Virus record (IMG/VR): IMGVR_UViG_3300025168_014280
Location: 1 to 45,538 of that record
Strand: one strand, 5' to 3'
Origin: a virus
Length of the DNA: 45,538 bases
Shown here: positions 25,813-41,718 of the stretch, piece after piece
Layout: each line of letters starts with the position of its first letter
Position numbering within the stretch: position 1 is the first letter of the stretch
Made by a program: the position numbers and the translations under genes
Notes under the pieces: model-generated
Database searches by the model: none
Told to the model about the DNA's origin: nothing
What the model saw: the letters and a program-made list of their open reading frames with translations, nothing else

Positions 25813-27266
25813 ACTTTGATGCCGTATTTGGCTTCGAATCTGTCAGCATCTTCTCTAGTGTTAACCATAGGTTCCCCACGAATGTTAAGAGATGTATTAA
25901 GCAACATAGGGCAACCAGTTTTCTCATACCATTTTTCTAACAACATTCTAAAACCAGGTGAATCATCCTTGCCTACTGTCTGCACTCTGGATGTTCCATC
26001 CACATGGATAATGGCAGGAAACTCATGTGGTTTTTTACATGTGCCAACAAACTGCATGTATGGAGAATCATCAGTGCATATATCAAAATACTCATTTACA
26101 TGTTCTTTCAGTATTGCAGGAGCAAAGGGTCTAAATTTTTGTCTACGTTTAATTGCATTCACTTGATCTTTAATTTCAGGACCTCTAGGATCTGCTAGAA
26201 GTGATCTATGGCCTAAAGCACGTGGCCCAAATTCAGCACGTCCAGACGCTACTCCGACTATTTTATTGGCATCTAATTCAGTGATAATTGCGTCTACAGG
26301 GTATGGATTGTCTATATTGGTACCAATGTACGGCCCCGGCCATTTTACCCTTTTTCCATGCTCTGCAAGTGCGGCTCCTAGTGATGATCCACAGTCTCCT
26401 GGATTGGGCATAATCCATACAGAATCAGCATGTCCAAATATGTGTGAATTTGCCACACAGTTCAGAGCCACTCCTCCTTGATAGATTAAATGGTTATTAC
26501 CATGATTAGTGTGTGCCATTGCTTTTTTGGTATATTCTACTACGAACTCTTCTGCCACTGCTTGAATACTAGCGGCTATGTCCATTACATCTGCTCCTGG
26601 CAAATAGTTTCCTAGTCCTTCATGCACATTCTTCTTCAATTCAAAAGGATAATAACTTGCAATAAAGTCTTTTTTTATTTTGTCTTTGTAGATCGGTTTG
26701 CCCCATCCTGCCATACCCATGGTGATGTATTCTTCATCCATTGGTTTTAAATTACAACGGAGAGTGAATGCTGAATACAACAATCCAAAAGAATGTGGAT
26801 ATTTGCTGTTGAACAGATGTTTCAATCCTCTCCTATCATCATATTCCCAAACGGAGCAAGTCAAAAATTCTCCAATAGCATCCAACACAACTACAGTGCC
26901 CATGTTCATTGGACCAGTAAATGCACCGGCAGCCGCATGCGAATAATGATGGTCAAATGTTTTTACCGGCGCTGTGATGCCAAACTGTTTCATGTATTTT
27001 GCTGGTGAACCTTCTAGGCCAACATAGGCATATTCACCTGTAACCATTTTGCGTATATTTTTTTTCCAAGGCTTTTCGTACCATGCAACCACATCTGGCA
27101 TACCATACTGCATGGCTTCCTTGACCATGTCAATGTGTAAACCTTTGTCATGTTTTTTGCCTGAATATCTTTCACTGTGAGCGCCGAATACAATTTTACC
27201 ATCTTTGATCACGCTCAGTCCTGCATCATGAAAATGTGCAGATACTCCCCAAATAGTTTTACTCAA
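25803..27266 (-). CDS. NodU/CmcH-type carbamoyltransferase
   Basis: 487 residues. It transfers a carbamoyl group from carbamoyl phosphate via carbamoyl-AMP to a hydroxyl, usually on a sugar. The N-terminal Kae1-like domain begins WGVSAHFHDAGLSVI and carries FDHHYSHAA (104-112, metal-binding histidines). YQGGVALNCVANS and NPGDCGSSLGAAL form the ATP-binding part. The C-terminal YrdC-like region starts FGPRALGHRSLLADPR, followed by FRPFAPAI and MLLNTSLNIRGEPMV. All family landmarks are present. With the surrounding glycosyltransferases it most likely decorates a glycan, although a carbamoylated nucleotide cannot be excluded. Confidence 0.93.
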   Translation of the reverse strand: MSKTIWGVSAHFHDAGLSVIKDGKIVFGAHSERYSGKKHDKGLHIDMVKEAMQYGMPDVVAWYEKPWKKNIRKMVTGEYAYVGLEGSPAKYMKQFGITAPVKTFDHHYSHAAAGAFTGPMNMGTVVVLDAIGEFLTCSVWEYDDRRGLKHLFNSKYPHSFGLLYSAFTLRCNLKPMDEEYITMGMAGWGKPIYKDKIKKDFIASYYPFELKKNVHEGLGNYLPGADVMDIAASIQAVAEEFVVEYTKKAMAHTNHGNNHLIYQGGVALNCVANSHIFGHADSVWIMPNPGDCGSSLGAALAEHGKRVKWPGPYIGTNIDNPYPVDAIITELDANKIVGVASGRAEFGPRALGHRSLLADPRGPEIKDQVNAIKRRQKFRPFAPAILKEHVNEYFDICTDDSPYMQFVGTCKKPHEFPAIIHVDGTSRVQTVGKDDSPGFRMLLEKWYEKTGCPMLLNTSLNIRGEPMVNTREDADRFEAKYGIKVCS

Positions 27267-28258
27267 TTTTTTATTCCTAGTTCTGCCCTATGTTTGTGCC
27301 AACCTTGTTTGACACAATGACTATGGTTGTGTTCTATAACATCTTTCATTTCTTCTATAAAATTGTACATTTTCTCTTGCCTGCTGTCAATACTGTCAAT
27401 TACTTTGCAAATAGCGTTCACTCTATCAACTCCATGCATGTCGTCATAATCTTCGTTCCACCATTTGTTAAAAGTTTTAAAACCTAATTTGTGCAACAAA
27501 CCTAAATGTCCTTGTCCTGCCATTATCACAAAAGGCTTTTTGAACAACATGGGTCTGATTGTTTTTTCTGTGATAAATGTGGTGTTATTAGCAGTTTCAG
27601 TTTCACTCACAATATCAACAAATATGTTATCATAGTGATGTTTTATACCTAAGACATTTTCTGGAAATTGTAACAATACACCTTTGCGAAAATGTTTTAC
27701 TCGTATATTGTTGTGCGGTGCAGATAATAATATTTGTTTGTATTTCTCAGCGTCCTGTTCACTATAAAATTCTTTCAGTTTTTTTATTGTGTAATCTGTA
27801 AATGGAGGTTTACCTGCGCCAGTCCAAAAGGTATGCAAACAATTATTTGTAGATTTAACCTTGTCGTGCAATACTACTCTGTCCCAACTAGGTCTTCCAA
27901 TAAAATGACCAAAAAGTTTTTCTGGTTGTGCGACATATTCTGTGGCCCAATCAACGTTAGATCTTTTTATTAGATCTAACCAATATGGTTTTCTATACAC
28001 AATTTTGCAAGGATAATTTGCCTGATAGTCACATATCTCTATTGTGATATTATCTATGTTGATGTTTTTTTCTTTTGCTGTTTGTAAAATTTTGTCCCAA
28101 GCACCGTTTTCATACAGATTGTAACCTTCTGGATACATGTCTAACACAGGATCCTGTGATTTGGATATACACAAATTAAAATAGTCTTCTAAAGCAGTGG
28201 CAAAGTTATTGAAAACAACACCGACGTTAACATACTTGAGCAAAGGCATTTTTTTCAA
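27263..28258 (-). CDS. GT10-like glycosyltransferase of a marine-phage family (copy 1)
   Basis: 331 residues. The diagnostic block is IFVDIVSETETANNTTFITEKTIRPMLFKKPFVIMAG (given here in shorthand by its ends and the ITEKTIRPMLFKKP core), followed by GLLHKLGFKTFNKWWNEDYD. The TEK...P.L...P pattern resembles the donor-binding segment of GT10 fucosyltransferases. The N-terminal part has DPVLDMYPEGYNLYE and KLFGHFIGRPSWDR, both repeated in the paralogue at 28760. The likely role is transfer of a sugar to a phage or host surface component. It overlaps its neighbours by four bases on each side. Confidence 0.65.
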   Translation of the reverse strand: MKKMPLLKYVNVGVVFNNFATALEDYFNLCISKSQDPVLDMYPEGYNLYENGAWDKILQTAKEKNINIDNITIEICDYQANYPCKIVYRKPYWLDLIKRSNVDWATEYVAQPEKLFGHFIGRPSWDRVVLHDKVKSTNNCLHTFWTGAGKPPFTDYTIKKLKEFYSEQDAEKYKQILLSAPHNNIRVKHFRKGVLLQFPENVLGIKHHYDNIFVDIVSETETANNTTFITEKTIRPMLFKKPFVIMAGQGHLGLLHKLGFKTFNKWWNEDYDDMHGVDRVNAICKVIDSIDSRQEKMYNFIEEMKDVIEHNHSHCVKQGWHKHRAELGIKN

Positions 28259-28770
28259 AACAACACTCCTATGCCCATATGTCTTATTCTAGTAAGACTC
28301 ATAAATTTGTATTGCTGTGCTTGAACACCCGGTAAATGCATATCGTGTAGCAAAATAATATGATCCGGAGATACAACTTGTTTCAATTTCATCATGGTTG
28401 TGTCCATATAAAAACTATCGTGTGAATGATCGACAAACACCCAATCAAATTCAGTGTCCACAGTGTCTAACCAGATGTTGCTGTCTTTATTGATGTAATC
28501 TATGTTATCAAACATTTGTAAATTGTGTTTGGCTTTTTCTTGTTGTTCTTTGAATATTTCTACTGTGGTAATTTTTGCATCAGGGTCGCAAAAACTTGCT
28601 ATGATAGATGTGCTTAATCCTTGATATGTACCTAATTCTAAAATAGTTTTTTTGCCCGACAAAGTTTTTTCTATTACTCTTGCTTCGTCTCTGTGCATCC
28701 AGCCTTCTATGCCAAATTGAAGCATGCCGTCCTTGTTATGTTTTAATTCTGCTAAAGATTTAATTTTCAT
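28255..28770 (-). CDS. Class I SAM-dependent methyltransferase
   Basis: 171 residues. Motif I is ILELGTYQG (43-51), motif II is ITTVEIFKE with the acidic residue for the SAM ribose, and EFDWVFVDHSHDSFYMDT is motif IV. SPDHIILLHDM closes the core sheet. The pattern resembles small O-methyltransferases of the Methyltransf_24 type found in sugar clusters. It is sandwiched between two paralogous GT10-like genes, overlapping both, which suggests it methylates the sugar they transfer or the acceptor. Confidence 0.85.
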   Translation of the reverse strand: MKIKSLAELKHNKDGMLQFGIEGWMHRDEARVIEKTLSGKKTILELGTYQGLSTSIIASFCDPDAKITTVEIFKEQQEKAKHNLQMFDNIDYINKDSNIWLDTVDTEFDWVFVDHSHDSFYMDTTMMKLKQVVSPDHIILLHDMHLPGVQAQQYKFMSLTRIRHMGIGVLF

Positions 28771-29806
28771 AACATTCTATTTCACTATCATTCCATACAC
28801 TAACATTGAACTTATGCAGGTGTTTTTCATATCCTTTGTTTGCTACATGTTCAAAATTATGTTCTAACACAGATTGCATTTCTTTCAACATATTCTTCCT
28901 TGCACTGTGACCCATGTCAGCAATATTTTGCATTCTTTTTTGTATTCCTATAAATTTTGATTTAAAATTAAGATTATCATATTCTTCGTCGAACCATTTG
29001 TCAAAAGTTTGAAAACCTAATTGGCGTAATTTTTCCAAATAGTTAGTCCCGCACATGGCTAAAAAAGGTCTTTTAAACAACATTGGACGCACAGTTTTTT
29101 CTGTAATGAAACAATTTTCATCAGACGTATCAGTTTCATGCATAATGTCCACAAAGGTTTGTTGATACGTCATCTGTAATGGTTTAATATCGTCAGGCCA
29201 ATTAGGACTTGATTTTATTGCATTAAAGGGATCTAAATTTTGTAGTGGAGTATCTAATGTATCACTTACAATTTGTTTTATTTCTTGATTGTTATAATGT
29301 CCTGTATTTTTTAAATTTACTATTATATCAGACAAACTTTTTTCCACATTGGCAAATCCATGCATAGAATAATAAGATATGTCAGCATATCTGTTCTTGA
29401 TGTAACTGTGCATTGCACATCTATCCCAAGTCATTCTTCCTATGAAATGTCCGAAATGTTTTGCAGTGTAATGAGTAAACTCTATATTGTTTTCCTGTGC
29501 ATATACAGATGCTTTGTCTAAGAAATAAGGAGTGTGTTTTATAACCTTGCAGTGATATTCTGCTGACATATCTCCAGTCACTAACGTGATGTCCGTCTCA
29601 TTAAATCCACATGCTTTTGCTATGGCCAGTATAGCATCATAAGTCTCTGCTGTGTGTAGGTTGTAACCTTCTGGATAAAGATCAAGAATAGGATCATTAT
29701 TATTTTTTTTACACCATGTAAAGTAATTGGTTAGATCACTAGTAAATTTTCCTAATCCACTATACAGATATCCTATGCCAGTAATAGGCCAAAGTTTTAG
29801 TTTCAT
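28760..29806 (-). CDS. GT10-like glycosyltransferase of a marine-phage family (copy 2)
   Basis: 348 residues, a clear paralogue of the gene at 27263. Shared features are DPILDLYPEGYNLH, KHFGHFIGRMTWDR, TFVDIMHETDTSDENCF followed by ITEKTVRPMLFKRPF, and LRQLGFQTFDKWFDEEYD. The most divergent part is the middle (about 150-220), which may set acceptor specificity. As with copy 1, the TEK/P.L segment suggests a GT10-like donor site. The presence of two copies suggests two different linkages in one glycan. It overlaps the oxygenase and the methyltransferase genes. Confidence 0.65.
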   Translation of the reverse strand: MKLKLWPITGIGYLYSGLGKFTSDLTNYFTWCKKNNNDPILDLYPEGYNLHTAETYDAILAIAKACGFNETDITLVTGDMSAEYHCKVIKHTPYFLDKASVYAQENNIEFTHYTAKHFGHFIGRMTWDRCAMHSYIKNRYADISYYSMHGFANVEKSLSDIIVNLKNTGHYNNQEIKQIVSDTLDTPLQNLDPFNAIKSSPNWPDDIKPLQMTYQQTFVDIMHETDTSDENCFITEKTVRPMLFKRPFLAMCGTNYLEKLRQLGFQTFDKWFDEEYDNLNFKSKFIGIQKRMQNIADMGHSARKNMLKEMQSVLEHNFEHVANKGYEKHLHKFNVSVWNDSEIECYEN

Positions 29807-30528
29807 TTTTTGTCAACAGGGTTACCATGTTCATCTTCGTAATACAAACTACGGTGTGGTTTTTCTTCTGGTATGCTGTTGGACGTATAATAAAATATTC
29901 TAAATCCTACACGTGCCACTGTGTCTGGACAGGTCATAGGGTGTGGATGACCATGTCTTAATTTAGGATGATATTTCCACATTAACAGTGTGTTAGGTTC
30001 AGGAGTGATTTCTGCCACAGTTTCTGTGTTTTCTAAGTTTCGAAACTGTAATCCTCCCTGCCAGTCAGATTGCCATTCTTTACTAAGATATAAAATTAGA
30101 TTTAATTGTCTATTAAGATGTAATTCTTCATTCCAATTAAAATCTGTATGCATTTTAAGACTGTGACCTTTATAGGATTTCATCAACCCTGCTCCAACCA
30201 TATGTGGATCAGGAATAAGTTTGGATTCTTTAGTGAACTGTTCTAACCAAGTTACAAATTCAGTTGAATTCATTTCTAAATTCAGTTGCCTAATAAGTGG
30301 TGCCACATCACCGTAATTATTTGTGCATTCTTCCATGTATGAACCATTCCTTGTAAATCTTGTCCATCTTTGTTTTGGAATGTCTTCAACTTGTTGTGCT
30401 AATTTTTTAAACAGTTCGTCTGGCAAAAAATTAGGTAGTGCTATCCAAGGCACTGGATCTGCAGTATGATAATCCATACTAAAGTGCCTTGCAGAGTATT
30501 TGTTGGTTATTTCATTAATATTGATCAT
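29803..30528 (-). CDS. 2OG-Fe(II) oxygenase (prolyl-4-hydroxylase type)
   Basis: 241 residues. Iron ligands are His127 and Asp129 (LKMHTDFNW) and a second histidine in RHGHPHPMTCPDT (His194 or His196). Arg206 or Arg210 (ARVGFRIFYY) is the 2-oxoglutarate anchor. The LNLILYLSKEW and WQGGLQF strands are typical of the prolyl-hydroxylase-like group. It would hydroxylate a peptide, sugar or base. It starts two bases after a 34-residue gene and is followed by glycosyltransferase genes; hydroxylation to create a sugar attachment site is one possibility. Confidence 0.85.
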   Translation of the reverse strand: MININEITNKYSARHFSMDYHTADPVPWIALPNFLPDELFKKLAQQVEDIPKQRWTRFTRNGSYMEECTNNYGDVAPLIRQLNLEMNSTEFVTWLEQFTKESKLIPDPHMVGAGLMKSYKGHSLKMHTDFNWNEELHLNRQLNLILYLSKEWQSDWQGGLQFRNLENTETVAEITPEPNTLLMWKYHPKLRHGHPHPMTCPDTVARVGFRIFYYTSNSIPEEKPHRSLYYEDEHGNPVDKK

Positions 30529-30634: not shown

Positions 30635-31312
30635 TTAGATATTTAACATGCCTTTTAACAGTGTGCATGCCTCTTGATGTGCTTGATGTAACGGGTGTTT
30701 ATATTTGCCTACAGGAAAATTTTTGTCTGAGCACCATTCTATAAAACCTTTGCCTTGGAAAGAGTGCATAGTAAGTTCTGCAACATCATCGCATGCTGGC
30801 AAAAATACATATTGAGCACCCTGCGACTCCAGATACCCTTTCACTGCCAGCATACATAATTCAGTTTGAAACATATACTGTTTGTGACCTGTGTAGGTGT
30901 AGATCTTTTTGGATAACTCTGGAATTCCTATTTCATTCAGTTGTTGAGAATACTCTCGATATTCATCAAATGCTTTGATATCGTAATCCCATGAATTCGG
31001 AGCAAGGTCCAACCAAGTTGTTGGCTGATTATTTTTTCCTTTAATTAACTGATTTAGATGCACACCAAAACGTGAAGGATACGTCCATTGCACTATGTAG
31101 AATGATTGCCAATCTGCTTTGCTTTCTAGTATCTGTTTTGCAATGCCTTGGTTAGATGCAGAAGGATATGCTACACAATTATATTCCACACCCAAGTGCT
31201 TGGCTGTTAAAGCAGGGTACGTTAGTTGTGAATATGGTACTTCATCGCCAAGTTCTGATCCATGTATAAATGAACATCCTGCTGATACAATTTTCTTTAT
31301 ATTTCTGTCCAC
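30635..31312 (-). CDS. SGNH-like hydrolase family protein
   Basis: 225 residues. The N-terminus IKKIVSAGCSFIHGSEL has the block I serine (Ser14) of SGNH/GDSL hydrolases, ASNQGI supplies the asparagine-containing block, and KHPLHQAHQEA near the C-terminus has the late catalytic histidine region. Such enzymes are esterases or acetyl hydrolases acting on sugars or lipids. The divergent marine-phage branch has no tested substrate. It overlaps the first radical SAM gene by 16 bases. In a surface-glycan cluster, de-acylation would fit. Confidence 0.65.
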   Translation of the reverse strand: MDRNIKKIVSAGCSFIHGSELGDEVPYSQLTYPALTAKHLGVEYNCVAYPSASNQGIAKQILESKADWQSFYIVQWTYPSRFGVHLNQLIKGKNNQPTTWLDLAPNSWDYDIKAFDEYREYSQQLNEIGIPELSKKIYTYTGHKQYMFQTELCMLAVKGYLESQGAQYVFLPACDDVAELTMHSFQGKGFIEWCSDKNFPVGKYKHPLHQAHQEACTLLKGMLNI

Positions 31313-32580
31313 CAGTCCAATACTCTTTCATCTCTGTTTAATATTTTCGTTATATCTTGACCTCTTATTTTGTCGATGCTTTCTTGACGTTGTTTGCCTT
31401 TTTGTGTCGCTGTAAAAGTTTCTCTAGTTTTTAAGTTTTTTAAAACATCTATTAATGCTTTTTGTTTTCTAGTAGCACGAGGTTCCATATATGCAAGTGC
31501 TTCATCAATTATTGTGTGCAACAGCATTTTAGGCAGTGCTAGTGGACTTAGGATTTCTTCATCGCTGAAAGTGAACATAACCTTTGTTAATATTTCAGTA
31601 TCTAATTCTTTGCTTAGGTCAAACATATTTTTTAGTTCTAATAAACCAGGCATTGTCAGTGTGTAGTCTAGTCTCATTTCTCTAGACGTTTTAGACACTG
31701 CTAACCCTTCTTTGAAATTGCGTAACCACTGCTGATAATTTAATCCATCTCTAATATATTCACCAACTTCTCCTGTGCCATCCAATGAAGAACATATTTG
31801 CCAGTCTTGAAAATGTGGTACAAGATCAAACAGTTTGATGCCTTTAAAAGTGGTCTTACTTAAATTTGTGTTGTATCTCACACAAACTTCTTTTGCAAAT
31901 CCTAATTCTATAATTCTCTGCATGGCTTTCCAGTGCATGTCCCACATCAAAGGTTCTCCTCCGCACCAGTATATTTCTTTTATTTTTTTTGTTTCAACTG
32001 CATCAACAAATTCTTCCACAATTTGTGTATCTTGAAATTTTTTAATTTGTTCTCTTAATGGCGATGCCATCCATGGTTGTGATTCTTTGCTCCATGTGTT
32101 ATTTTTTCTTGATTCTGCTTCCCAACTAGAACTGAGCATGTCTCCACACATCCTACATTTAAAGTTACACAAATTGTTGAATCTGTAGTCAAAACTCACA
32201 GTTTCCATTGTAGTAGCACCTTTGTTGTCCGTTGTAGCAAATGCTTCGTCTATTTTATTTTCAAACAGTTTGTTCCAATAAGATCTGTACACGTCTGTGT
32301 TTAAAAGTTTATGATCACACACTTCACATTCTGAAAGTTCTTCTCCTGCTAACATACGTAAACGCACTGATTTCATATGATCTGAATTCCAATGTTCTTT
32401 CAGTGTTTGCGGTTTATACTCACGGGCATTATTATCTGTGTCTATATACTGCTTAAAACTTTGTGCAGACTCCCTAGATGCACAACATAAACGTCTTTCT
32501 GTTTGGGGAGATAGATAGGTGTGTGTCCATGGAGCCATACAAAACGTTTTATTGCCTTCACTGGGTTTTAATCGTTTCAT
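31297..32580 (-). CDS. Radical SAM protein 1 with N-terminal SPASM/twitch-like domain
   Basis: 427 residues. The radical SAM cluster motif is Cys138, Cys142 and Cys145 (LCNFKCRMCG). IYWCGGEPLMW is the GGEP SAM site, and YNTNLSKTTF and CSSLDG follow as core strands. Before the core, residues 1-90 hold FCMAPW (Cys14), LCCAS (Cys32/33), a KEHWNSDHMKSVR helix and CEVC (Cys85/Cys88). This is the pattern of a SPASM/twitch auxiliary iron-sulfur domain, here placed at the N-terminus rather than the C-terminus. Radical SAM enzymes with such domains often modify peptides. The substrate is unknown. First in a row of five. Confidence 0.88.
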   Translation of the reverse strand: MKRLKPSEGNKTFCMAPWTHTYLSPQTERRLCCASRESAQSFKQYIDTDNNAREYKPQTLKEHWNSDHMKSVRLRMLAGEELSECEVCDHKLLNTDVYRSYWNKLFENKIDEAFATTDNKGATTMETVSFDYRFNNLCNFKCRMCGDMLSSSWEAESRKNNTWSKESQPWMASPLREQIKKFQDTQIVEEFVDAVETKKIKEIYWCGGEPLMWDMHWKAMQRIIELGFAKEVCVRYNTNLSKTTFKGIKLFDLVPHFQDWQICSSLDGTGEVGEYIRDGLNYQQWLRNFKEGLAVSKTSREMRLDYTLTMPGLLELKNMFDLSKELDTEILTKVMFTFSDEEILSPLALPKMLLHTIIDEALAYMEPRATRKQKALIDVLKNLKTRETFTATQKGKQRQESIDKIRGQDITKILNRDERVLDWWTEI

Positions 32581-33737
32581 ACCAGTTCTTTCAATTGCGG
32601 AAATGTTACAGCAAACGATTCTTGTCTAAATTTATCACTGGCTGTAATTTTTAATCTTCTGGCTTCATCCATTGTGGCAGAGTGCAAATTTTTATCCATC
32701 ATAAAATCTACTGCACCTTTAAGTTGCTGTTTGTGAAAATTGTTATTATTGTATTTTAACAGTTTTTTTGCAATTTTTTCTTTTAATTTTTTTGGAAGAT
32801 ATTGTACATTCCATTCTTTGGCTTCGTGCAAATAATTGTAAAACACATAATCAAAATCTTGTGTCTCTATCCAGTCGGCCATCTTGTCTAGATAGTATAT
32901 GTTTTGTATGTTAATTGTACAGCACACTTGCGTTTTAATATTCTTGTGTGTGTTTTTAAGCCTGTTAAACTTTTTTACATTTGCAACCACTTTTTTCCAT
33001 TCTGCACCATGACGTTGATATTCAAATCTTTTGCCCATGTCATCAATAGAAAACGCTATTTCGACTTCTGCAAACTCTGGCCATATGCTTTCTATAGCAC
33101 GTTTAGGATATGTTGTGCCATTTGTGTTGTAGTGAATTTTTTGACCACCTGCATGACCTAACACAGCACTTTTCTCTAGCAAAGTAAAATGTTCTTCGAT
33201 TAAGAATGGTTCACCTCCTGTAAATTCAAAATATTCAACTGTAGGCAAAAGCGATTGAATATCGTTCCAGAGGTCAACTTCTTTACGTGGCCATTGGCCT
33301 TGTTGTAACCAATCTTTAGCATGTTTATTGCCTAACACAATTTCTTCTTTTGCCCATTTTGAAGATGACCAAGATCCACATATTCTGCATTTTAGATTAC
33401 AAATGTTACCTAGTTTAAGATCTAAAAATTTAATGTCCAACCTATCAGTGTTTACTCCAAATTTTTTATTGGAAATCATACGCTTAGAAGTGCCACCTGC
33501 TGATTCTAAACTCCAACATTTAGCACAGGTTTTAGGCATACCGCCCTCTAAAAACTCCTGTCGCAAATTGCTCATATATGTTGAATGGAAAGCATCACCG
33601 ATACTGTCACCTTTGGCAATATCATAAGGGATGTTGTTTACACCTAGAATAGATTCTTCAGCAAGACAACATGGTCTAAATTCTCCTAGTGGAGTTGTCT
33701 CAATGCTCATCCATGGCAGTGTACAAATTTTAGACAA
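32577..33737 (-). CDS. Radical SAM protein 2 with N-terminal SPASM/twitch-like domain
   Basis: 386 residues. The core motif is Cys113, Cys117 and Cys120 (ICNLKCRICG), the SAM site is FEFTGGEPFLIEE, and IHYNTNGTTYP and IAFSIDDMG mark later core strands. The N-terminal auxiliary pattern is ICTLPW (Cys5), RPCCLAE (Cys23/24) and CAKC (Cys71/Cys74). It is closest in layout to copies 1 and 3. The C-terminus is helical and lysine-rich and carries no further Cys cluster. It overlaps both neighbours by 4-8 bases. Confidence 0.88.
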   Translation of the reverse strand: MSKICTLPWMSIETTPLGEFRPCCLAEESILGVNNIPYDIAKGDSIGDAFHSTYMSNLRQEFLEGGMPKTCAKCWSLESAGGTSKRMISNKKFGVNTDRLDIKFLDLKLGNICNLKCRICGSWSSSKWAKEEIVLGNKHAKDWLQQGQWPRKEVDLWNDIQSLLPTVEYFEFTGGEPFLIEEHFTLLEKSAVLGHAGGQKIHYNTNGTTYPKRAIESIWPEFAEVEIAFSIDDMGKRFEYQRHGAEWKKVVANVKKFNRLKNTHKNIKTQVCCTINIQNIYYLDKMADWIETQDFDYVFYNYLHEAKEWNVQYLPKKLKEKIAKKLLKYNNNNFHKQQLKGAVDFMMDKNLHSATMDEARRLKITASDKFRQESFAVTFPQLKELV

Positions 33738-35004
33738 GTATCTCTCCTAATTCGGGTACAACATCTACAAGTTTTTGTTTTCTTCTTTGATCAAGCAAAT
33801 TGGTCATTTCTACAAACTTTGGCAATAAATGTGTCTTATCAGATGACATCATGAAATCTATAGTAGACGCAAATCCATTATAGGCTCTTTTAAGTGTATC
33901 TTGCTTTTCTATGCTCTGCATGTGCAACTCAATTTTTGTCTTAATTTTTTCTTTTATATGTTGTGGCAAAATATCTATCCTATAGTGCAACGGATCTTGT
34001 AATATGTTCATGTGCAAATCACTAGGCCCTAAAAATCCTTTGGCCATCCAATCTTTATGAAAATCTGATATATGATCAACATTCATCACACTCACTGTTG
34101 GCGAAATATAAAAATCCACATTGGGACATTTTTTCAACATCTCTTCTCTATTGTGTTCTACATCTGCCCACACTGTGCCGTTCCTTACGTATTCAGCACG
34201 AGGACCCATAGCATCCAAAGACGCTCCCACAGATACTTGTTTAAATTCTGGCCATATATCTAGCACGTTAAGGTCTTTGTACGCCATTCTAGTAAAGTTA
34301 GTGTTGTATATCAGTCTGACTGAGTCTGCTTTGCCTAAACGTATCAGTTCTTTCAAAATTTTATAGTGCTCTTCCATTATCAGCGGTTCGCCGCCAGCAA
34401 AATAGACTTGCTCAACCATAGGCATATATGCAATCAGTTGACTGTAAGCATCCATTTTTGTTGTGCCGGCATAGGTTATTTTGTCATGATTTGGTTTGCC
34501 CCATAATGCTACTTGATCATCGTACCAATTCGAAGAAAACATAGATCCGCATGATCTACAAGATAGATTACAAAGATTGGAAAATCTTATATCCCAGTAT
34601 ATCATGTTTACATCATCATATGCACCATCATCTTTTGTTTTTTTAATTTTGTCTATGTGATGACCAAAATGTATGTTTGAAGATTCTCGCATTGAAGTCC
34701 AGCCATGTGCCTCTTGCTCATAACATTTGGTGCACTGTTTGCTTGGTTTGTTGGACAGCATATTGGTCCTGATAGTTTTCATATCATCGCTGTTCCATAA
34801 TTCTTGTATTGTGTTTTCCTTCATTGACCCAATTGGATGTTCATGCTTTGCTAGACAGCATGGATATGCATTGCCATCTGGATATGCGTGAAGATGTGTC
34901 CAAGGTAACATGCAAAAATACTTGCTATCTGTCAGCAACTGTTTTTCTTTGTCACTTAAAGTGTTTACATCTACTTTTGTTGGCATTTTGTCTTTATAAC
35001 TCAT
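33730..35004 (-). CDS. Radical SAM protein 3 with N-terminal SPASM/twitch-like domain
   Basis: 424 residues. The core motif is Cys145, Cys149 and Cys152 (LCNLSCRSCG), the SAM site is VYFAGGEPLIMEE, and LIYNTNFTRM and VGASLDAMG follow. The auxiliary domain is the most typical of the set: FCMLPWTHLHAYPDGNAYPC with Cys31 and Cys49/50, LGS-like GSMKENTIQELWNSDDM, and CTKC (Cys91/Cys94). That whole block reads like a textbook SPASM half placed before the radical core. It has an extra 28-residue N-terminal extension. The substrate is unknown. Confidence 0.88.
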   Translation of the reverse strand: MSYKDKMPTKVDVNTLSDKEKQLLTDSKYFCMLPWTHLHAYPDGNAYPCCLAKHEHPIGSMKENTIQELWNSDDMKTIRTNMLSNKPSKQCTKCYEQEAHGWTSMRESSNIHFGHHIDKIKKTKDDGAYDDVNMIYWDIRFSNLCNLSCRSCGSMFSSNWYDDQVALWGKPNHDKITYAGTTKMDAYSQLIAYMPMVEQVYFAGGEPLIMEEHYKILKELIRLGKADSVRLIYNTNFTRMAYKDLNVLDIWPEFKQVSVGASLDAMGPRAEYVRNGTVWADVEHNREEMLKKCPNVDFYISPTVSVMNVDHISDFHKDWMAKGFLGPSDLHMNILQDPLHYRIDILPQHIKEKIKTKIELHMQSIEKQDTLKRAYNGFASTIDFMMSSDKTHLLPKFVEMTNLLDQRRKQKLVDVVPELGEILV

Positions 35005-36331
35005 TGTACCATGCTACCATTTCTTCACTGAACGTATTTGTAAAATTTTTATTACGTCTTTTGTCATATTGTTTATAAAAATGTTTAAAGTCTTGCTGTA
35101 ATCTATCCAGAGAATCTGCTCCAGAGTGTGGCGTTTTAACAACATCTAAGTAGTCGATAAGTCTGTGTATTTGATTGTATTCATGTTCATGTAATAAGTC
35201 TTTGTAGATTTTTGCTTGATATTTTAGTTTGTGGATTGCTGTTTGTTTTATTGACTCGGGCAAAACCACTGCCGACTGAAAGGAAGGAAAACGCAATATG
35301 TTCAATGTAAAGTTAGGAAAATTTTTGCCATATTTTTTTTTCAGGGCAACCATCCAATCTATAAGACTGTCTAGAGAGTCCAAACACAATGCATTTACAG
35401 TACACATTACATGCAGTCGTGAAAGGTTACCTTCTTCTATCAATCTAAACACATTGTCTCGCCATTGTTTAAACTTCATTCCATCTCTGATGTAGTCTGC
35501 TTGTCCCCACATTGCTTCTGCAGATGTGTAAACGTCGAAATGTTTTACGTGATGTGATGCTTCGATTAATCTGTCCATTAATTCTGGTTTAGGACACAGA
35601 TTGCTATTGATTGCAAGTATAGTTTCGCTCTTGCTATGATTTGCCTTGAACCAATCAAGCAGTTTCCACATGTCAGCACTCATTAATGGTTCTCCGCCTG
35701 TGACTCTAAGTTCTTGCAAAGTTTTGTGTAAATCTGTTTCCCACCATTTCCAAAATGCTTCCACATAAGGATTATACTCTTGGTATCCATATTTCTGAGA
35801 AGCATCATGCGGGTGAGTAAAATGATTTCTTCCATCTGATTTTAGATCAGTATATGCACCATTCTTTTTGATGTCTTTGACCCATGTTGTGGAAAATGCA
35901 GGATTACAATAAGAACAAGCAAAATTACAGGTCCTGTCAAAAGATATTTCTAAAGTTTTAAGATTTACATCATATTCAAAAGTTGTATCATATGCAGTTT
36001 GGAGATCTTCATGTGTATAAATTTTTGATTTGTAAATTCTGTCGGATACAACATCAGGACCAATATCTTCTGCTTTCCAGCAGTACTCGCAACCTTTTGG
36101 TCTTTGACCGGCCTGCATCATTTTACGTTCTAATTTTTTTTGGTGTGTGTTGTGTATTGCTGAAGGATTTGTTTTAATTTCTTCCAGATCAATTTGGTGT
36201 GGCAAAGGATGATGGCAAGATGTAGTTTGACCTGAACCTAACCAGATGGTAGCGTTGTACCACTTGGCCGCACAAAATGAAGCACTTTTTGTGTCTAGGT
36301 AATTTTTTTTAAATTCTAAATCTTTGTTCAT
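34994..36331 (-). CDS. Radical SAM protein 4 (AKW subgroup)
   Basis: 445 residues. The core motif is Cys135, Cys139 and Cys142 (TCNFACSYCN), the SAM site is LRVTGGEPLMSAD, and LAINSNLCPKPEL follows. The N-terminal auxiliary pattern differs from copies 1-3: FCAAKWYNATIWLGSGQTTS with Cys20, SCHHP (Cys39) and CEYC (Cys81/Cys84). The PW becomes KW and the CC becomes a single Cys followed by His-His. The SYCNPAFSTTW stretch and EAFWKWWETDL are shared with copy 5. It forms a subgroup with copy 5, so the array looks like at least two ancestral types. Confidence 0.88.
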   Translation of the reverse strand: MNKDLEFKKNYLDTKSASFCAAKWYNATIWLGSGQTTSCHHPLPHQIDLEEIKTNPSAIHNTHQKKLERKMMQAGQRPKGCEYCWKAEDIGPDVVSDRIYKSKIYTHEDLQTAYDTTFEYDVNLKTLEISFDRTCNFACSYCNPAFSTTWVKDIKKNGAYTDLKSDGRNHFTHPHDASQKYGYQEYNPYVEAFWKWWETDLHKTLQELRVTGGEPLMSADMWKLLDWFKANHSKSETILAINSNLCPKPELMDRLIEASHHVKHFDVYTSAEAMWGQADYIRDGMKFKQWRDNVFRLIEEGNLSRLHVMCTVNALCLDSLDSLIDWMVALKKKYGKNFPNFTLNILRFPSFQSAVVLPESIKQTAIHKLKYQAKIYKDLLHEHEYNQIHRLIDYLDVVKTPHSGADSLDRLQQDFKHFYKQYDKRRNKNFTNTFSEEMVAWYNEL

Positions 36332-37680
36332 CTAGTTGCCTGCTGACATTCTGAAAACCATGAGCGATATTCAGGAAAAGTTTCTATAAGATTAGTGTTT
36401 CTCCTTGCATCGTGTGTGCGGAAAAATCTCCAAAAATCTGCCATGTGTAAGTGTTTATCATCTATGCCTTGGCGCATAACCTGATAAGATCGTTGAAGTT
36501 TTTCTATTTCGTAGTCTCTAAATGCAGACATGTGCGTATCATGTTGGTTCTGTTGCATATATTCAATTGCTTCTTCAAAATAATAGTTGAACGATTCATC
36601 TAACAATCCTATGTGTTGCCAAATAGGCTGACGCAATATAGGAGTATCAAACCACACTCTTTGATAGTCTTTAGAATACTTAGATCTCAATTCTAAAATA
36701 TGTACAAGTAGCGTTTTTAAACTTGACACACTCAGATTATTCAGTGTGATAATAAAAGTCAGCGAATTTCTACCTGGAATATCGGTTAGATATCTGTTTA
36801 CATTGTTCCACACTGTATCAAAATTCATGCCGTTCCTAATGTACTGTGCTTTTTTATCCCATGCATCTAATGACACAAACTGCATAAAATGTTCAACCAA
36901 TTCACCATCACATATCTGTTTGACCATAGAAAAATATTTGTCTGTGAGTTGTTGTGTAGGTGGACAAAAGTTCGATGTGACATTTAAGTGCAGATCTTCT
37001 TTAGGATTTTGAATAACATACTCAAAAACTTTAAATGTATTTTTATCCATCATTGGTTCTCCACCAGTCATTCTAAAATGTTTTAGTTTAGGATACAGAT
37101 CAGGCCACCATTTCCAAAATGCTTCCACGTAAGGATTATTTTTTTGTGGCAACACCTTAAAGTGTGTTGGATCATTGTGTGGATTTGATGTAGGATATGC
37201 ACCATGCTCTTCTATTTCTTGTGCCCATGCAGTTGAATACTGTGGAGAACAATAGGAACAAGAAAAATTACATGCATTGTTAAAATCTACTTCAACGTAG
37301 GTTGGCACAACATCTGCTTGTGGATTTTGTAAAATATTTTCATACTCTGCTATTGCCCATTCTTCACCAGAACGATAATGCCTGTCACTTAGTTTGTTGT
37401 TATCTTCCAACCGCCAACAATATGAACAACCATCTGGACGTTGCCCATTGATCATTTGTAATCTTTGTGTTTTTTTCTCATCTGTATTGTGCAGTTTGGA
37501 TGGATCTTGTGCAATTTTTTCTCTATCAATTGCATGTAGTGGAGGATGATAACATGAATTAGTTTTACCTGTGGTCAGATGTAAACTTGTTTGCATCCAT
37601 TTTGCCAAACACATACTAGGCGATACAGCGTCAAGTTTTTTCTTTGCCTCTAGGGCAGAGTCCATGTAATCACTACTCAT
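36328..37680 (-). CDS. Radical SAM protein 5 (AKW subgroup)
   Basis: 450 residues. The core motif is Cys137, Cys141 and Cys144 (ACNFSCSYCS), the SAM site is FRMTGGEPMMDKN, and LNVTSNFCPPTQQL follows. The auxiliary pattern is MCLAKW (Cys24), SCYHPPLHAID (Cys43) and CSYC (Cys85/Cys88). It shares PQYSTAWAQEIEEHGAYP and NPYVEAFWKWWPDL with copy 4. The C-terminus ends with an LHMADFWRFFRTHDARRN block that parallels the QDFKHFYKQYDKRRN end of copy 4. Gene order and overlap imply co-expression with the GT-A-like gene just upstream. Confidence 0.88.
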   Translation of the reverse strand: MSSDYMDSALEAKKKLDAVSPSMCLAKWMQTSLHLTTGKTNSCYHPPLHAIDREKIAQDPSKLHNTDEKKTQRLQMINGQRPDGCSYCWRLEDNNKLSDRHYRSGEEWAIAEYENILQNPQADVVPTYVEVDFNNACNFSCSYCSPQYSTAWAQEIEEHGAYPTSNPHNDPTHFKVLPQKNNPYVEAFWKWWPDLYPKLKHFRMTGGEPMMDKNTFKVFEYVIQNPKEDLHLNVTSNFCPPTQQLTDKYFSMVKQICDGELVEHFMQFVSLDAWDKKAQYIRNGMNFDTVWNNVNRYLTDIPGRNSLTFIITLNNLSVSSLKTLLVHILELRSKYSKDYQRVWFDTPILRQPIWQHIGLLDESFNYYFEEAIEYMQQNQHDTHMSAFRDYEIEKLQRSYQVMRQGIDDKHLHMADFWRFFRTHDARRNTNLIETFPEYRSWFSECQQATR

Positions 37681-38540
37681 TTGTTACACCATTTAAAAAA
37701 TTTAGATTGATCTGGCTCAAGATAAGAAGCATTGATACCTAAATGATAGTTCAAGTCTTTGTGCAAGTCTGTAATTTTCTCTTGTATATCATCTTTGGTT
37801 GACTCATGTACACTATGCCACATGTCTTCTAGGGATTTAAAGTCTTTTGTTATCTTGTAATCCCATCCTGTCATTAGTGTTGTCAAGAAAGATCCATAAC
37901 ATGCTCCATGTATTGCCCAGTCTCCATTTTTTACATCACTGCCTACACTCATCCAAACTAATAAATTTTTTAAATTTTCTCTGTATATTCTTTTCTTGAA
38001 TTCAGCAGGTTTGACTCTATGTCCTCTATCCAAACTCATTTTTACTCCTTCTCTGAAACCTGCTTGCCAAGCTTGATACTCAGAGTGATTAATTACAGTG
38101 GTTGAATAGCATTCTTTCATTGCCACATACTGGTCATGAAAACAAAATTCTATTGCACTTTCTGGGTCACCTTCCGAGTTTTCATGTGTTTTCATTTGTT
38201 TTACAAATTTTTTTGTCCAGGAAGATATTCCACCATTGCCATACTTTAACCCATTTATAATGTTATGTCCTTGCCATCTGATTACTGCATCTTCTGGCAT
38301 TGTAGCAGTATCAAGTTGTTGATCAAAAATACTAGCATCAACAATATTGTCACCATCCACTAACATGAAACGTTCTGTGTCGGCAGTTTCTGCGGCGGCT
38401 TTGTGTGCCGCATCTGATCCTTCAACGCCGTCAACACGTTTTGCCCAGGGGCATTTGGATTTAAGATCTAACCAATTGTGCTCTTTATTAGGTTCTTTGT
38501 AAGAAAGAAAGATTACATCAAGATCTGCTATATCAATCAT
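37677..38540 (-). CDS. GT-A-like glycosyltransferase
   Basis: 287 residues. The N-terminus DLDVIFLSYKEPN opens a GT-A Rossmann half. RFMLVDGDNIVD holds a DGD that matches the metal-binding DxD of GT-A enzymes. GGISSWTKKFVK and QAWQAGFREGVKMS are shared in pattern with the long repeat protein at 24268 (TWRSAFRECAKLS). The sugar donor and acceptor are unknown. It sits between the radical SAM array and other GT-like genes, overlapping its neighbours by 4-8 bases. Confidence 0.65.
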   Translation of the reverse strand: MIDIADLDVIFLSYKEPNKEHNWLDLKSKCPWAKRVDGVEGSDAAHKAAAETADTERFMLVDGDNIVDASIFDQQLDTATMPEDAVIRWQGHNIINGLKYGNGGISSWTKKFVKQMKTHENSEGDPESAIEFCFHDQYVAMKECYSTTVINHSEYQAWQAGFREGVKMSLDRGHRVKPAEFKKRIYRENLKNLLVWMSVGSDVKNGDWAIHGACYGSFLTTLMTGWDYKITKDFKSLEDMWHSVHESTKDDIQEKITDLHKDLNYHLGINASYLEPDQSKFFKWCNK

Positions 38541-38853
38541 AGTTTACATATGAATGTTTGTGTTCGTCAAACCAATCCGGTTTTACTTTGGCAGGTTTAA
38601 TACATACAAACAAATTGTCCTTTTCTACAATCCAACCAGGCAATTGTTTTGTGAACTTAAAATTTTTGCCTTGTTTTTGTGTTTCTCTTAATTTTAATCG
38701 CAACTCTCTATCTACCACTTCATGTGACATAGTAGCCATGCCTTTTTTGACTTCTAACATAGTTTCTTCATTGCATGATATGAAATCGCCCGGCTCATCT
38801 GATACGCCAACCATTGTAATCTGTCCTAAATGATTATAATAAATTTTAAACAT
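38533..38853 (-). CDS. Small hypothetical protein, 106 aa
   Basis: 106 residues with no recognised family. The N-terminal MFKIYYNHLGQITMVGVSDEP and the middle GWIVEKDNLFVCIKPAK are strand-like, and one helix runs from about 29 to 60. In some tail-associated phage proteins a similar short beta-rich domain is seen, but I cannot support a link. It overlaps both neighbouring glycosyltransferase-like genes by about eight bases, so it belongs to the operon. Confidence 0.6.
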   Translation of the reverse strand: MFKIYYNHLGQITMVGVSDEPGDFISCNEETMLEVKKGMATMSHEVVDRELRLKLRETQKQGKNFKFTKQLPGWIVEKDNLFVCIKPAKVKPDWFDEHKHSYVNYD

Positions 38854-39655
38854 ATGCTTTATATTTAGATATCAAATCCTCTGTACATTTTGTTTTATCA
38901 TGGTAATGCCATGGCACACTAATTTTTGCTCCATTAACAATTATTTGATTAGGTTTAGGTATAGAAAAATATTGCCAGTGGCCAACACAGTATTTTTTAT
39001 TGTGTACAAATGTAGGCAAACTTGTGGTTGATACGCAATTATCCATGCCTAAATTTCTCAATGCCATAGCCATACCAAAGTCTGTAGATGGTTCATGAGC
39101 GCCCCACAATCTAAACTTTTTAATTTCATCATACCAATTGTCAAAAATTCGGTCTAATTCTTTAAAGAATGCAACATTTTGTTTGGTTACTCTCACATAG
39201 TATAGACCATTATATGCATTTGGCAGTAGATTTTCATTGATAAACTCTCTGTATCTCAAATCATTTGCTTTTTTCCTTTTATGATTTTGTACTGATCCTG
39301 TGATGCATAAATCTTGTAGTCTGAACCTATGTTTCCATATTTCTAAATCACATGGTATCAACATATCTGCTTCAAATTTTACAGTTTCTTTGAATGGAGT
39401 CAAATTTAAAATGTCTGCTTCATATTGCATATTGTTAACCACTGTTCTTTTAGGCACTGTGATTACATGGTCACAAACATCATGCAATTCGGATCTGCAT
39501 GTGTCTGCATCATTCACTATCACAGCAATTTTTACAGGTAATTTTTGTGTGGCTCTAAGACTGAGTGCCCACAGCAATGCACAAGATTCGTAATCTACTT
39601 CATTGTTGAGTGCAAACGTAAGATATCCAAACCCATTTTTATCATTTACATGCAT
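38846..39655 (-). CDS. GT8-like GT-A glycosyltransferase (copy A)
   Basis: 269 residues. FGYLTFALNNEVDYESCALL and LPVKIAVIVND form a GT8-type opening. TVKFEADMLIPCDLEIW stands where GT8 enzymes have their DxD metal site, here EADML with a later Asp. NAYNGLYYVRV, AHEPSTDFGMAMAL and a late FVHNKKY...GHW region (His/Gly) complete the outline. The gene downstream in the window (39642) is a paralogue. The acceptor is unknown; sugars on fibres or host glycan mimicry are plausible. Confidence 0.62.
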   Translation of the reverse strand: MHVNDKNGFGYLTFALNNEVDYESCALLWALSLRATQKLPVKIAVIVNDADTCRSELHDVCDHVITVPKRTVVNNMQYEADILNLTPFKETVKFEADMLIPCDLEIWKHRFRLQDLCITGSVQNHKRKKANDLRYREFINENLLPNAYNGLYYVRVTKQNVAFFKELDRIFDNWYDEIKKFRLWGAHEPSTDFGMAMALRNLGMDNCVSTTSLPTFVHNKKYCVGHWQYFSIPKPNQIIVNGAKISVPWHYHDKTKCTEDLISKYKAYV

Positions 39656-40421
39656 TGTACAAACTTTCCTTGTTCAAAATATGACAATCAAAATTTACAG
39701 TAAACTTGCCTTTTGTATCCTGAAAATGTATTTTATCATGATCAATGGCAGTCACATCAACAGTGTCTCTCGTAGTATGAATAGGCCATGGTATCACACA
39801 ATGATCGACTGAGTCAAACTCCATCAACTGCGACAGTGCGATAGAAACAGCATAATCATTTCTAATGATGTGCGGAGTGAATCCAAACATTTGTGCATAA
39901 TATGTATAATTTTCTATTACCGCTCTCCATAGTTCAAAAAACTTTTTTACTTCTTTTGTTTTTTCAAATTTTAAAACTGTGGCCCACAACATAGATATTG
40001 CAGATTTGCCTACATTTAGAACTCCAACAGCATCATTGTTGATATCATACCATTCTCTGTGCATGAGCAAGGATTGACTAGACTCAAGTAATTTTGTTAT
40101 TTGATCTGATTGCAAAAAATAATCTGAGTCGATTACAATGGTGCTTTGCCATGGCGAAATATCATATGCATGAAAACGTGACAAATTGTGCCATTCTTTT
40201 GATATAACTCCAAAAACTTTTTTATTATTTCGGGGCAGTCCAATTGGTCTATGTTCATCAACTCCTTGTATTTCTTCGCCTACGCTCATGATGGGTATAT
40301 CAGGAATATGTTTACGAACCTGCTTCACACACTGTTCGGCAATTTTTGAGTAATCTATGTGTGAGTTGTGATTGAAAATTAATATGCCGGCATCATGTTG
40401 CAATCTTTTTATACTCCTCAT
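39642..40421 (-). CDS. GT8-like GT-A glycosyltransferase (copy B)
   Basis: 259 residues. AGILIFNHNSHIDYSKIAEQ opens the fold, and STIVIDSDYFLQSD has a clear DSD metal-binding motif. AVGVLNVGKSAI, RNDYAVSIALSQL and a late histidine (DCHILNKES) follow in the same order as in copy A at 38846. The two appear to be an ancient duplication with different acceptors. It overlaps copy A by 14 bases and the operon's first gene by 29. Confidence 0.62.
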   Translation of the reverse strand: MRSIKRLQHDAGILIFNHNSHIDYSKIAEQCVKQVRKHIPDIPIMSVGEEIQGVDEHRPIGLPRNNKKVFGVISKEWHNLSRFHAYDISPWQSTIVIDSDYFLQSDQITKLLESSQSLLMHREWYDINNDAVGVLNVGKSAISMLWATVLKFEKTKEVKKFFELWRAVIENYTYYAQMFGFTPHIIRNDYAVSIALSQLMEFDSVDHCVIPWPIHTTRDTVDVTAIDHDKIHFQDTKGKFTVNFDCHILNKESLYNACK

Positions 40422-40671
40422 GATACTCGTTTAAAATTTGTTGATGTTTTTGTTTTAGTGTGGTTTGAAAATCCTGCACTGACTCAATTACACAAGGTGT
40501 TTTGTTAAGATCAAGCACTGTGTCACCATCTTGTAAACACTGTGCATAACTTAAAGTTTGTGCATCACTGCGAAACAATCCTCCGTGATAAACAAATGTC
40601 ATTTGTGCTTCACATCTTTGATAAAGTAATGAAAGATCTCTTTTAATTGAAAATCTGCGTGTCTGACTCAT
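40393..40671 (-). CDS. Small hypothetical protein, first gene of the minus operon, 92 aa
   Basis: 92 residues. The N-terminus is basic (MSQTRRFSIKRDLSLLYQR), the middle is a small beta unit (MTFVYHGGLFRSDAQTL, VLDLNKTPCVIES), and the C-terminus is a charged helix. No family is recognised. Its ATG lies six bases after a TATAAT box with no ribosome binding site, so it would be translated from an essentially leaderless transcript. As the first gene of an 18-gene operon it may have a regulatory role, but nothing in the sequence shows one. Confidence 0.6.
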   Translation of the reverse strand: MSQTRRFSIKRDLSLLYQRCEAQMTFVYHGGLFRSDAQTLSYAQCLQDGDTVLDLNKTPCVIESVQDFQTTLKQKHQQILNEYHEEYKKIAT

Positions 40672-40710: not shown

Positions 40711-41718
40711 TTATGCTTGAGACTGTGCCGCTTCAGCACCTGTTACTGTGCCAATTGCATCATTGTTTAGATGAGTTGTGTTTGGTTTTTTGATCACAAA
40801 CACAGAAGTTAAAGTGCCATCAACAGTATCTAGCAATGTCTGTGCATCATCTTCTGGATCTGATTCTGCTTCACCTGATCCGCCTGCACCTTCATCTGAT
40901 GAATCTGCCGCCGCGTCTGAGGCAGTTGATTTGATGTGTAATACTTCTCCTTTGCCACCATTACTACCTGCTGTGCCTGAAATTTTTACTTCCCACTGAC
41001 AAAAGTTTGCAGTGTATGGAGATGAATCTGCAAATTGTTTCTGTAACACTACATAGCCTCCACCATTGCTTAAATCAGTGTTCCAATATCCTTCATTGAC
41101 AGCAGTGCCTGGAGTACCAGAACCACTTAATGCATCAGTGTTACCAGTCAGTGTAAATGTAGCGGCTTTGGTGTTGAACAAGTCGATCCATTCTGTCTGC
41201 TTGCCTCCTGCTGTGCCACCTGATAAGTTCCAAGTGTGTGTGATGCTTCCACCTGCATTGAAAAAATATCTTGCCGCATCTGATGAGGCAAATGTAATTG
41301 TTTGTTCGTGTACAGTAGATGTTCTCCATGCACCAGAAAATGTTCTGTTACCTGCGGAGTTTGCGTCAGTAACGTTGGCGGCAGCCGCAGTGTATCTTCC
41401 GTTGCCTAAAGCAGTAATATCGTTGGTTATTGCAAGTATGGCCGCTACTGGATCACCGGCTACTAAAGTGCCGGAGTCTGCTGTTGTAATTCCAGTGCCT
41501 TGATGGTCTGATAAGTTACGCATTCTGCCTAACAGTGTATTCCATTGTGCTGCCTGCACAGTTGTAGATGTATCCACTACAGATATAACATTAGATTGAC
41601 CCATGCCATAAGTGCCGTTTCCAGTGCCCCAAATCTTGTTAATGTTATTTGGGTCGCCACTGTTGGCAAAGCCATTATAATGATCATCTAGTATTAAGTC
41701 ACCTGTTTGATATGCCAT
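40711..41718 (-). CDS. Tail-fibre/structural protein, 335 aa
   Basis: 335 residues, rich in Gly, Ser, Thr, Asn and Ala with few charged residues, as in phage fibres. The N-terminus MAYQTGDLILDDHYNGFANS is, to my recollection, shared by structural proteins of T4-like marine phages. A long beta-rich middle carries repeated TFTLTG, GSITHTWNLSGG and similar strands. The stretch around 275-300 is acidic (SDEGAGGSGEAESDPEDD), probably a flexible insert. It is the last fibre gene before the enzyme operon, and the ATG follows AGGAAAATATAA closely. Confidence 0.7.
   Translation of the reverse strand: MAYQTGDLILDDHYNGFANSGDPNNINKIWGTGNGTYGMGQSNVISVVDTSTTVQAAQWNTLLGRMRNLSDHQGTGITTADSGTLVAGDPVAAILAITNDITALGNGRYTAAAANVTDANSAGNRTFSGAWRTSTVHEQTITFASSDAARYFFNAGGSITHTWNLSGGTAGGKQTEWIDLFNTKAATFTLTGNTDALSGSGTPGTAVNEGYWNTDLSNGGGYVVLQKQFADSSPYTANFCQWEVKISGTAGSNGGKGEVLHIKSTASDAAADSSDEGAGGSGEAESDPEDDAQTLLDTVDGTLTSVFVIKKPNTTHLNNDAIGTVTGAEAAQSQA

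Follow-up and report, generated by a model that had tools for sequence, protein, structure and literature searches.

A tandem array of five radical SAM genes

Five neighboring radical SAM open reading frames lie on the minus strand at positions 31297–37680 of the window (the whole stretch of DNA analyzed, a 45.5 kb fragment). We named them R1 (31297–32580), R2 (32577–33737), R3 (33730–35004), R4 (34994–36331) and R5 (36328–37680), with transcription running from R5, the first of the five, to R1, the last. Their products are 386–450 aa long, neighbors overlap by 4–11 nt, and head-to-tail overlap takes in 11 window genes, from 40671 to 30635. The radical SAM core profile PF04055 matches all five (E = 5e-11 to 3e-6), one of which passes the Pfam cut-off, while the NCBIfam model NF033640 (N_Twi_rSAM; curated cut-off, 170 bits) covers each nearly end to end with scores of 320.9, 324.3, 421.1, 314 and 316.3 bits for R1 to R5, making R3 the nearest to the family consensus. 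In each protein, an N-terminal cysteine set composed of C..PW or C..KW, a CC (R1–R3) or SC (R4 and R5) pair and CxxC precedes the CxxxCxxC core. Open reading frames and both profiles agree with the initial annotation, which had described five adjacent, overlapping genes with CxxxCxxC, GGEP and an N-terminal cysteine set.

The same annotation had rated the array the strongest candidate in the window for an undescribed system, but a new domain order is not supported: NF033640 already names the architecture with an N-terminal twitch, R1–R5 are all full-length members of that family, and T4-like viruses with multiple radical SAM genes are in print, as passages of two papers show (PMC5332604, PMC7029224). 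The family model covers single proteins and not an ordered operon. What is new here is the conserved, ordered quintet, along with the glycosyltransferases that accompany it and the range of jumbo phages that carry it.

An N-terminal, permuted twitch domain

The SPASM/twitch match falls at residues 5–95, ahead of the core, and not C-terminal to it, where the auxiliary domain of SPASM/twitch enzymes normally lies. The SPASM profile PF13186 matches R3 at residues 31–95 (E = 1e-13), and a profile built from R3 (22 orthologs) matches the C-terminal twitch of BtrN (4m7t) at profile positions 28–98 (E = 3e-4), an alignment of about 71 residues that covers all four cysteine positions with matching cysteine spacing. 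Both results bear out the earlier description of a SPASM-like domain placed first. In all but a few members of the five ortholog groups, the N-terminal spacing is C-x17-[CS]C ... CxxC, the same as in the aligned BtrN stretch. The first cysteine stands 17 residues ahead of the CC or SC pair wherever the full pattern is matched, save for one R3 sequence at 16, and 4 of 38 R2 sequences do not match the full N-terminal pattern. The core motif is still more constant: CxxxCxxC is present in every member of the five ortholog groups (n = 38, 38, 54, 63 and 94 for R1 to R5), and GGEP is kept in all sequences except one.

Structure prediction gave a confident AlphaFold2 (AF2) model of R3 (pLDDT 92.4, pTM 0.89), in which the cysteine sites (C31, C49/C50, C91 and C94) fall before a beta hairpin, just past the hairpin and past a helix. 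The same placement of cysteines, hairpin and helix has been described for the BtrN twitch (PMC6231123). The BtrN alignment, the cysteine spacing and the secondary structure of the R3 model mark the N-terminal domain of R1–R5 as a permuted twitch, in which a single auxiliary Fe–S cluster is most likely bound. The nearest PDB folds to the R3 model in Foldseek were SkfB, GDGT-MAS and anSME, with only the core aligned, a permuted domain being beyond the method.

These likenesses have limits. BtrN (2-deoxy-scyllo-inosamine dehydrogenase, PDB 4M7T/4M7S) shares a homologous twitch with R1–R5, but it is a single enzyme of antibiotic synthesis whose twitch follows the core, whereas in R1–R5 the twitch comes first. 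R1–R3 have one extra adjacent cysteine, and R4 and R5 depart from BtrN at the aligned place, where serine stands for the first cysteine of the CC pair and the next residue is cysteine. SkfB, anSME and SuiB are SPASM/twitch modifiers of peptides and proteins, the first and last-but-one of which are closest to the R3 core fold in the PDB; R1–R5 differ from them in the order of the auxiliary domain, in lacking an RRE and in leaving no room for a precursor peptide inside the array.

Five ortholog classes in a fixed order

We scanned IMG/VR with R3 and R5, yielding loci L006–L090; R5 matched at 496 places in the database, 80 of which were kept. Iterated HMM searches revealed tandem N_Twi_rSAM genes in most loci with enough downstream sequence. 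Loci were then classified gene by gene according to the best window ortholog and identical sets were removed, leaving 32 viral loci (some of them still close relatives) that carry all five classes on one strand. The order R5-R4-R3-R2-R1 was found in 29 of these, and the remaining three, which are close relatives of one another, have R1 and R2 swapped (54312). Additional copies adjoin their own class (44, 33, 22). The set seen in the window is therefore met again, in the same order, in other viruses, and scattered single copies alone, the pattern that the initial annotation had named as contrary to its reading, are not what the viral loci show. Gene order is not absolute, given the R1/R2 swap in three loci, and synteny among related phages reflects shared ancestry in part.

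The five classes are separate lineages. Orthologs are mostly 45–80% identical (lower for R2), and the window paralogs share 21–26% identity with R1. In a FastTree phylogeny of 168 sequences, some of whose long rows are uncertain, clade support was 100 for R1, 97 for R2, 86 for R3, 99 for R4 and 100 for R5, and each of the five clades has a Bacteriovoracaceae member inside or beside it. R4 and R5 join in one supported clade (98–99), while R1–R3 form separate deep clades and are not clearly a single group. The two subgroups proposed from the sequence match the CC/SC split, and the tree backs the R4–R5 pair more clearly than a union of R1–R3. Between near relatives, R1–R5 are 67–87% identical in amino acids at a divergence of 50–67% at four-fold sites, a sign of purifying selection on every one of the five. 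Together, R1–R5 are probably five non-redundant enzymes that act in sequence as an ordered multi-enzyme modification system.

Glycosyltransferases and a virion protein accompany the array

Upstream of R5 come, in order, the genes for X, a small protein, a GT8-type glycosyltransferase, a second glycosyltransferase, a further small protein and a protein of the virion. X (37677–38540, minus strand) carries a conserved motif of the DxD type (DGDN) and is predicted from its AF2 model to be glycosyltransferase-like, with a GT-A fold; the model (pLDDT 89) has GT2 and other GT-A enzymes as its nearest folds, with weak E-values, and a Pfam scan of X returned no match. A homolog of X lies upstream of R5, at most seven genes away, in 36 of 36 loci and is the immediate neighbor in most. 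The GT8-type gene (38846–39655, minus strand) is homologous to a characterized GT8 enzyme (family profile versus glycogenin-1, E = 2.7e-5) and is predicted to transfer sugar. The second GT8-like gene (39642–40421, minus strand), present in 35 of 36 loci, is linked to GT8 through the first (profile–profile match, 99.5% probability) and has no direct PDB match; it too is predicted to transfer sugar. PDB profile searches with X and with this second gene returned nothing useful.

Two small proteins keep their places in the block. A 106-aa protein (38533–38853, minus strand) sits between the GT8 gene and X, where other loci have similar small proteins that align weakly across groups. A 92-aa protein (40393–40671, minus strand) sits between the virion gene and the glycosyltransferases, where families 7 and 17 occupy the same position in most loci; a PHROG search with one member of family 7 found no match.

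Next to this block lies a fiber-region virion protein (40711–41718, minus strand), a candidate substrate found in 34 of 36 loci. Its N-terminal half is 28% identical to PA5oct gp360, which was detected in virions by mass spectrometry and whose gene adjoins tail-fiber genes. Searching IMG/VR with the virion protein alone recovered the same glycosyltransferase block, and in almost every locus that extends far enough downstream R5-R4 come after it; the exceptions mostly end early, with L224 a likely true exception.

Downstream, an SGNH/GDSL-like hydrolase of the DUF6071 family (30635–31312, minus strand; family representative L057 versus PF19547, E = 1e-11) overlaps the end of R1, and SGNH/GDSL hydrolases adjoin bacterial N_Twi_rSAM genes too. 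Further along the minus strand are genes for a 2OG-Fe(II) oxygenase (29803–30528; PF13640, E = 4e-13), a SAM-dependent methyltransferase (28255–28770; PF13578, E = 3e-12) and a NodU/CmcH-type carbamoyltransferase (25803–27266; PF16861, E = 8e-55; PF02543, E = 6e-34), along with two mutually related proteins (27263–28258 and 28760–29806) that matched no Pfam family in the scan. Elsewhere the window encodes FolE (PF01227 match) and a QueE-like gene, the latter labeled by eye.

Carriers among jumbo phages and bacteria

By DNA polymerase sequence, the carriers are very large uncultivated aquatic phages of a jumbo T4-like clade. The window polymerase is 58–64% identical to that of five array-bearing contigs of 178–342 kb and about 42–45% identical to that of jumbo isolates, among them Atu_ph07, Phosso, Vibrio 2.275.O and Munch. 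With its polymerase nearest to those of jumbo phages, the window was rejected as a typical pelagimyophage. Most large carriers have 6–21 N_Twi_rSAM matches per contig, and one contig has a single match. None of the four genomes Atu_ph07, Phosso, Vibrio 2.275.O and Munch contains an N_Twi_rSAM above the cut-off, nor does PA5oct, which has a relative of the virion protein. Among isolate phages, tblastn with R1, R3, R4 and R5 returned only Vibrio phages K566 and K567 or no match, and searches with X and the second glycosyltransferase gene found nothing; K566 has two N_Twi_rSAM above the cut-off and three clear ones below it.

Single copies predominate among the bacterial N_Twi_rSAM genes that a genome scan detected, which belong to Bdellovibrionota, Bacteroidota, Elusimicrobia and other groups. 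In Bacteriovoracaceae UBA6144, an array with all five classes adjoins obg, a context that is truly chromosomal. A search of Bdellovibrionota genomes for the GT8 family, run without a positive control, found no match, and neither did a search for X in UBA6144; enzymes of the R1–R5 type therefore seem to need neither a phage fiber nor those glycosyltransferases. Oligoflexia MH2_Bin27 has an X homolog at 37% and further radical SAM clusters resembling those of jumbo phage contigs, and L092–L096 look from gene order and content like viral contigs binned into MAGs. Neighbor scans in bacteria revealed weak trends only (SGNH, other radical SAM and GT2 genes).

Earlier reports describe comparable gene content. 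A T4-like environmental viral genome holds 12 radical SAM genes together with Fe–S assembly genes (PMC5332604), and a host-recognition cluster of pelagimyophages holds radical SAM cassettes and glycosyltransferases (PMC7029224). Like the carriers here, the phages in those passages are large marine T4-like phages with many radical SAM genes near fiber and glycosyltransferase genes, but the same passages describe neither a fixed orthologous quintet nor a bacterial counterpart set. A literature search, with most subscription journals outside its coverage, found no paper dealing with N_Twi_rSAM function, with the ordered quintet or with phage enzymes that have an N-terminal twitch.

A proposed pathway and its alternatives

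The initial annotation had pictured an assembly line acting on one peptide, glycan or cofactor. A fixed gene set in a fixed order fits an ordered multi-enzyme pathway, and the genes alongside the array favor a glycan or glycoprotein over a free peptide. Because the glycosyltransferase partners are constant, the balance tips slightly toward a substrate that bears a sugar, and the position of the array in the fiber operon suggests a virion glycoprotein as the target. The best explanation of the whole, to which we give tentative preference at somewhat short of even confidence, is that the five enzymes act in turn on one glycoconjugate, likeliest a glycosylated fiber protein of the virion.

Under this explanation, R5-R4-R3-R2-R1 would be made from one operon with the two GT8-type glycosyltransferases and X, directly after the fiber genes of a jumbo T4-like phage. 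The radical step is established chemistry in the radical SAM superfamily. As in other family members, the CxxxCxxC cluster of each enzyme would cleave SAM to a 5′-deoxyadenosyl radical, which would abstract hydrogen from the bound substrate. The permuted twitch would hold an auxiliary [4Fe-4S] cluster by four cysteines, as in BtrN, and this cluster would accept an electron. The substrate that BtrN oxidizes is an amino-cyclitol, and the electron is believed to pass to an auxiliary cluster with four cysteine ligands (PMC9012708). By analogy, each enzyme may carry out a two-electron oxidation (dehydrogenation, a cross-link or similar) at its own site or on its own intermediate. The genomic context suggests five such steps in succession on one glycoconjugate, assembled by the neighboring glycosyltransferases, with a glycosylated fiber protein such as 40711–41718 as the likeliest target and tuned adsorption or protection of the fiber as the possible effect.

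Attachment of the substrate to a virion fiber is, taken separately, rather doubtful. The bacterial array without these glycosyltransferase partners suggests that the same chemistry can be put to use on a different carrier molecule, and for this reason we hold the fiber reading level with one in which the operon remodels a surface glycan of the infected host (LPS or capsule), for instance to block superinfection, and leaves virion proteins alone. Decoration of surface glycans is the usual work of enzymes such as the GT8s, the carbamoyltransferase, the methyltransferase and the SGNH hydrolase, and some loci also carry NeuB-like and UDP-sugar dehydrogenase genes. In K566, the N_Twi_rSAM genes lie near GT8-like genes, PagP and an LpxC-like gene (glycosyltransferase and LpxC labels by eye), while GT2, epimerase and SGNH genes are close by in bacterial carriers; a passage on pelagimyophage glycosyltransferases makes the same argument (PMC7029224). 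Against this, the block lies within a fiber-gene operon and, in 34 of 36 loci, comes with the virion protein, and elaborate host-glycan chemistry late in infection would probably be of little gain to a lytic phage.

A glycosylated tail-fiber protein or a phage-directed surface glycan is more likely than a classical RiPP. Maturation of a RiPP whose precursor is the 92-aa or 106-aa protein is improbable, even though peptides are often modified by SPASM/twitch radical SAM enzymes (PMC9012708) and both small proteins keep conserved operon places. The array has no gap for a precursor gene, the two proteins look ordinary and conserved, with no sign of a variable core, none of the operon genes was recognized as encoding a transporter or peptidase, and no RRE or PqqD-type Pfam match was found in R1–R5 or ten flanking proteins, a set outside which the 92-aa and 106-aa proteins fell. 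Slightly less probable again is synthesis of a small molecule, modified nucleotide or cofactor: the substrates of MoaA and BtrN are small (PMC9012708) and the window holds FolE and the QueE-like gene, but these 7-deazaguanine-type genes are on the opposite strand, about 15 kb off and outside the conserved block. Least probable is that there is no pathway and the paralogs are mobile cassettes that gathered in a variable part of the genome, as extra copies (6–21 matches in most large viral contigs), apparently independent swapping of R1 and common insertions of genes between copies might suggest, since all five lineages are retained, in order and under purifying selection, across deep divergence.

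Returning to the preferred explanation, its most complete form, a five-step radical assembly line of phages that rewrites a virion glycan or glycoprotein with one enzyme per step and has a common origin with the chromosomal Bdellovibrionota arrays, is rather unlikely. If true, it would mean that a phage encodes an enzymatic modification of unusual complexity. A quintet with fixed partners provides a handle on the N_Twi_rSAM family, with operon boundaries, five ortholog groups, candidate substrates and a bacterial counterpart, and the long-noted excess of Fe–S genes in T4-like marine viruses becomes testable.

Evolution of R1 and the gene content of the window

R1 (31297-32580, minus strand), one of the window's five N-terminal-twitch radical SAM (rSAM) genes, shared 78-87% identity with its orthologues in L016-L018 and in L092-L094, the latter apparently viral contigs binned into MAGs, whereas for the other enzymes of these loci identity to those of the window was only about 38-60%. 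Among closer relatives of the window (L013-L015), R1 was only 47-48% identical. R1 seems to have been exchanged separately, independent of the other four.

Elsewhere in the window, FolE (11849-12532; PF01227), a QueE-like rSAM gene (16050-16946) and a possible tRNA-guanine-transglycosylase/DpdA-like gene (8287-9747) possibly form a 7-deazaguanine DNA modification set; the latter two were recognized by eye and had no Pfam match. A DegT/DnrJ/EryC1 aminotransferase homologue (2899-3498, 199 aa only) looks shortened, since its best-matching stretch covers just profile positions 167-237 of 360. An NAD-dependent sugar epimerase (23368-24291; PF01370, E 4e-30), located where the window's two gene blocks meet, is possibly a nucleotide-sugar supplier.

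Related genes in other phages and in bacteria

A further N-terminal-twitch rSAM, annotated as 'hypothetical protein', was found in Vibrio phage K566 (L091:20472-21734, minus strand; 142 bits on NF033640, under the cut-off of 170), in a cluster that also includes glycosyltransferase-like genes, PagP and, by eye, an LpxC-like gene. In Bdellovibrionota, R5/R4-type genes adjoin a gene judged nucleotidyltransferase-like by eye (L184:5802-9472 and L183:4652-7125), and in genome G004 an ABC exporter is also close by, as is an outer-membrane protein resembling one that adjoins the array of Bacteriovoracaceae UBA6144. Finally, in L185 (G011:C1:128000-147999) and L182, several other rSAM families occur both in a second block of rSAM genes on a viral contig of 198 kb and in an Oligoflexia cluster, a pattern suggestive of gene exchange linking jumbo phages with Bdellovibrionota.
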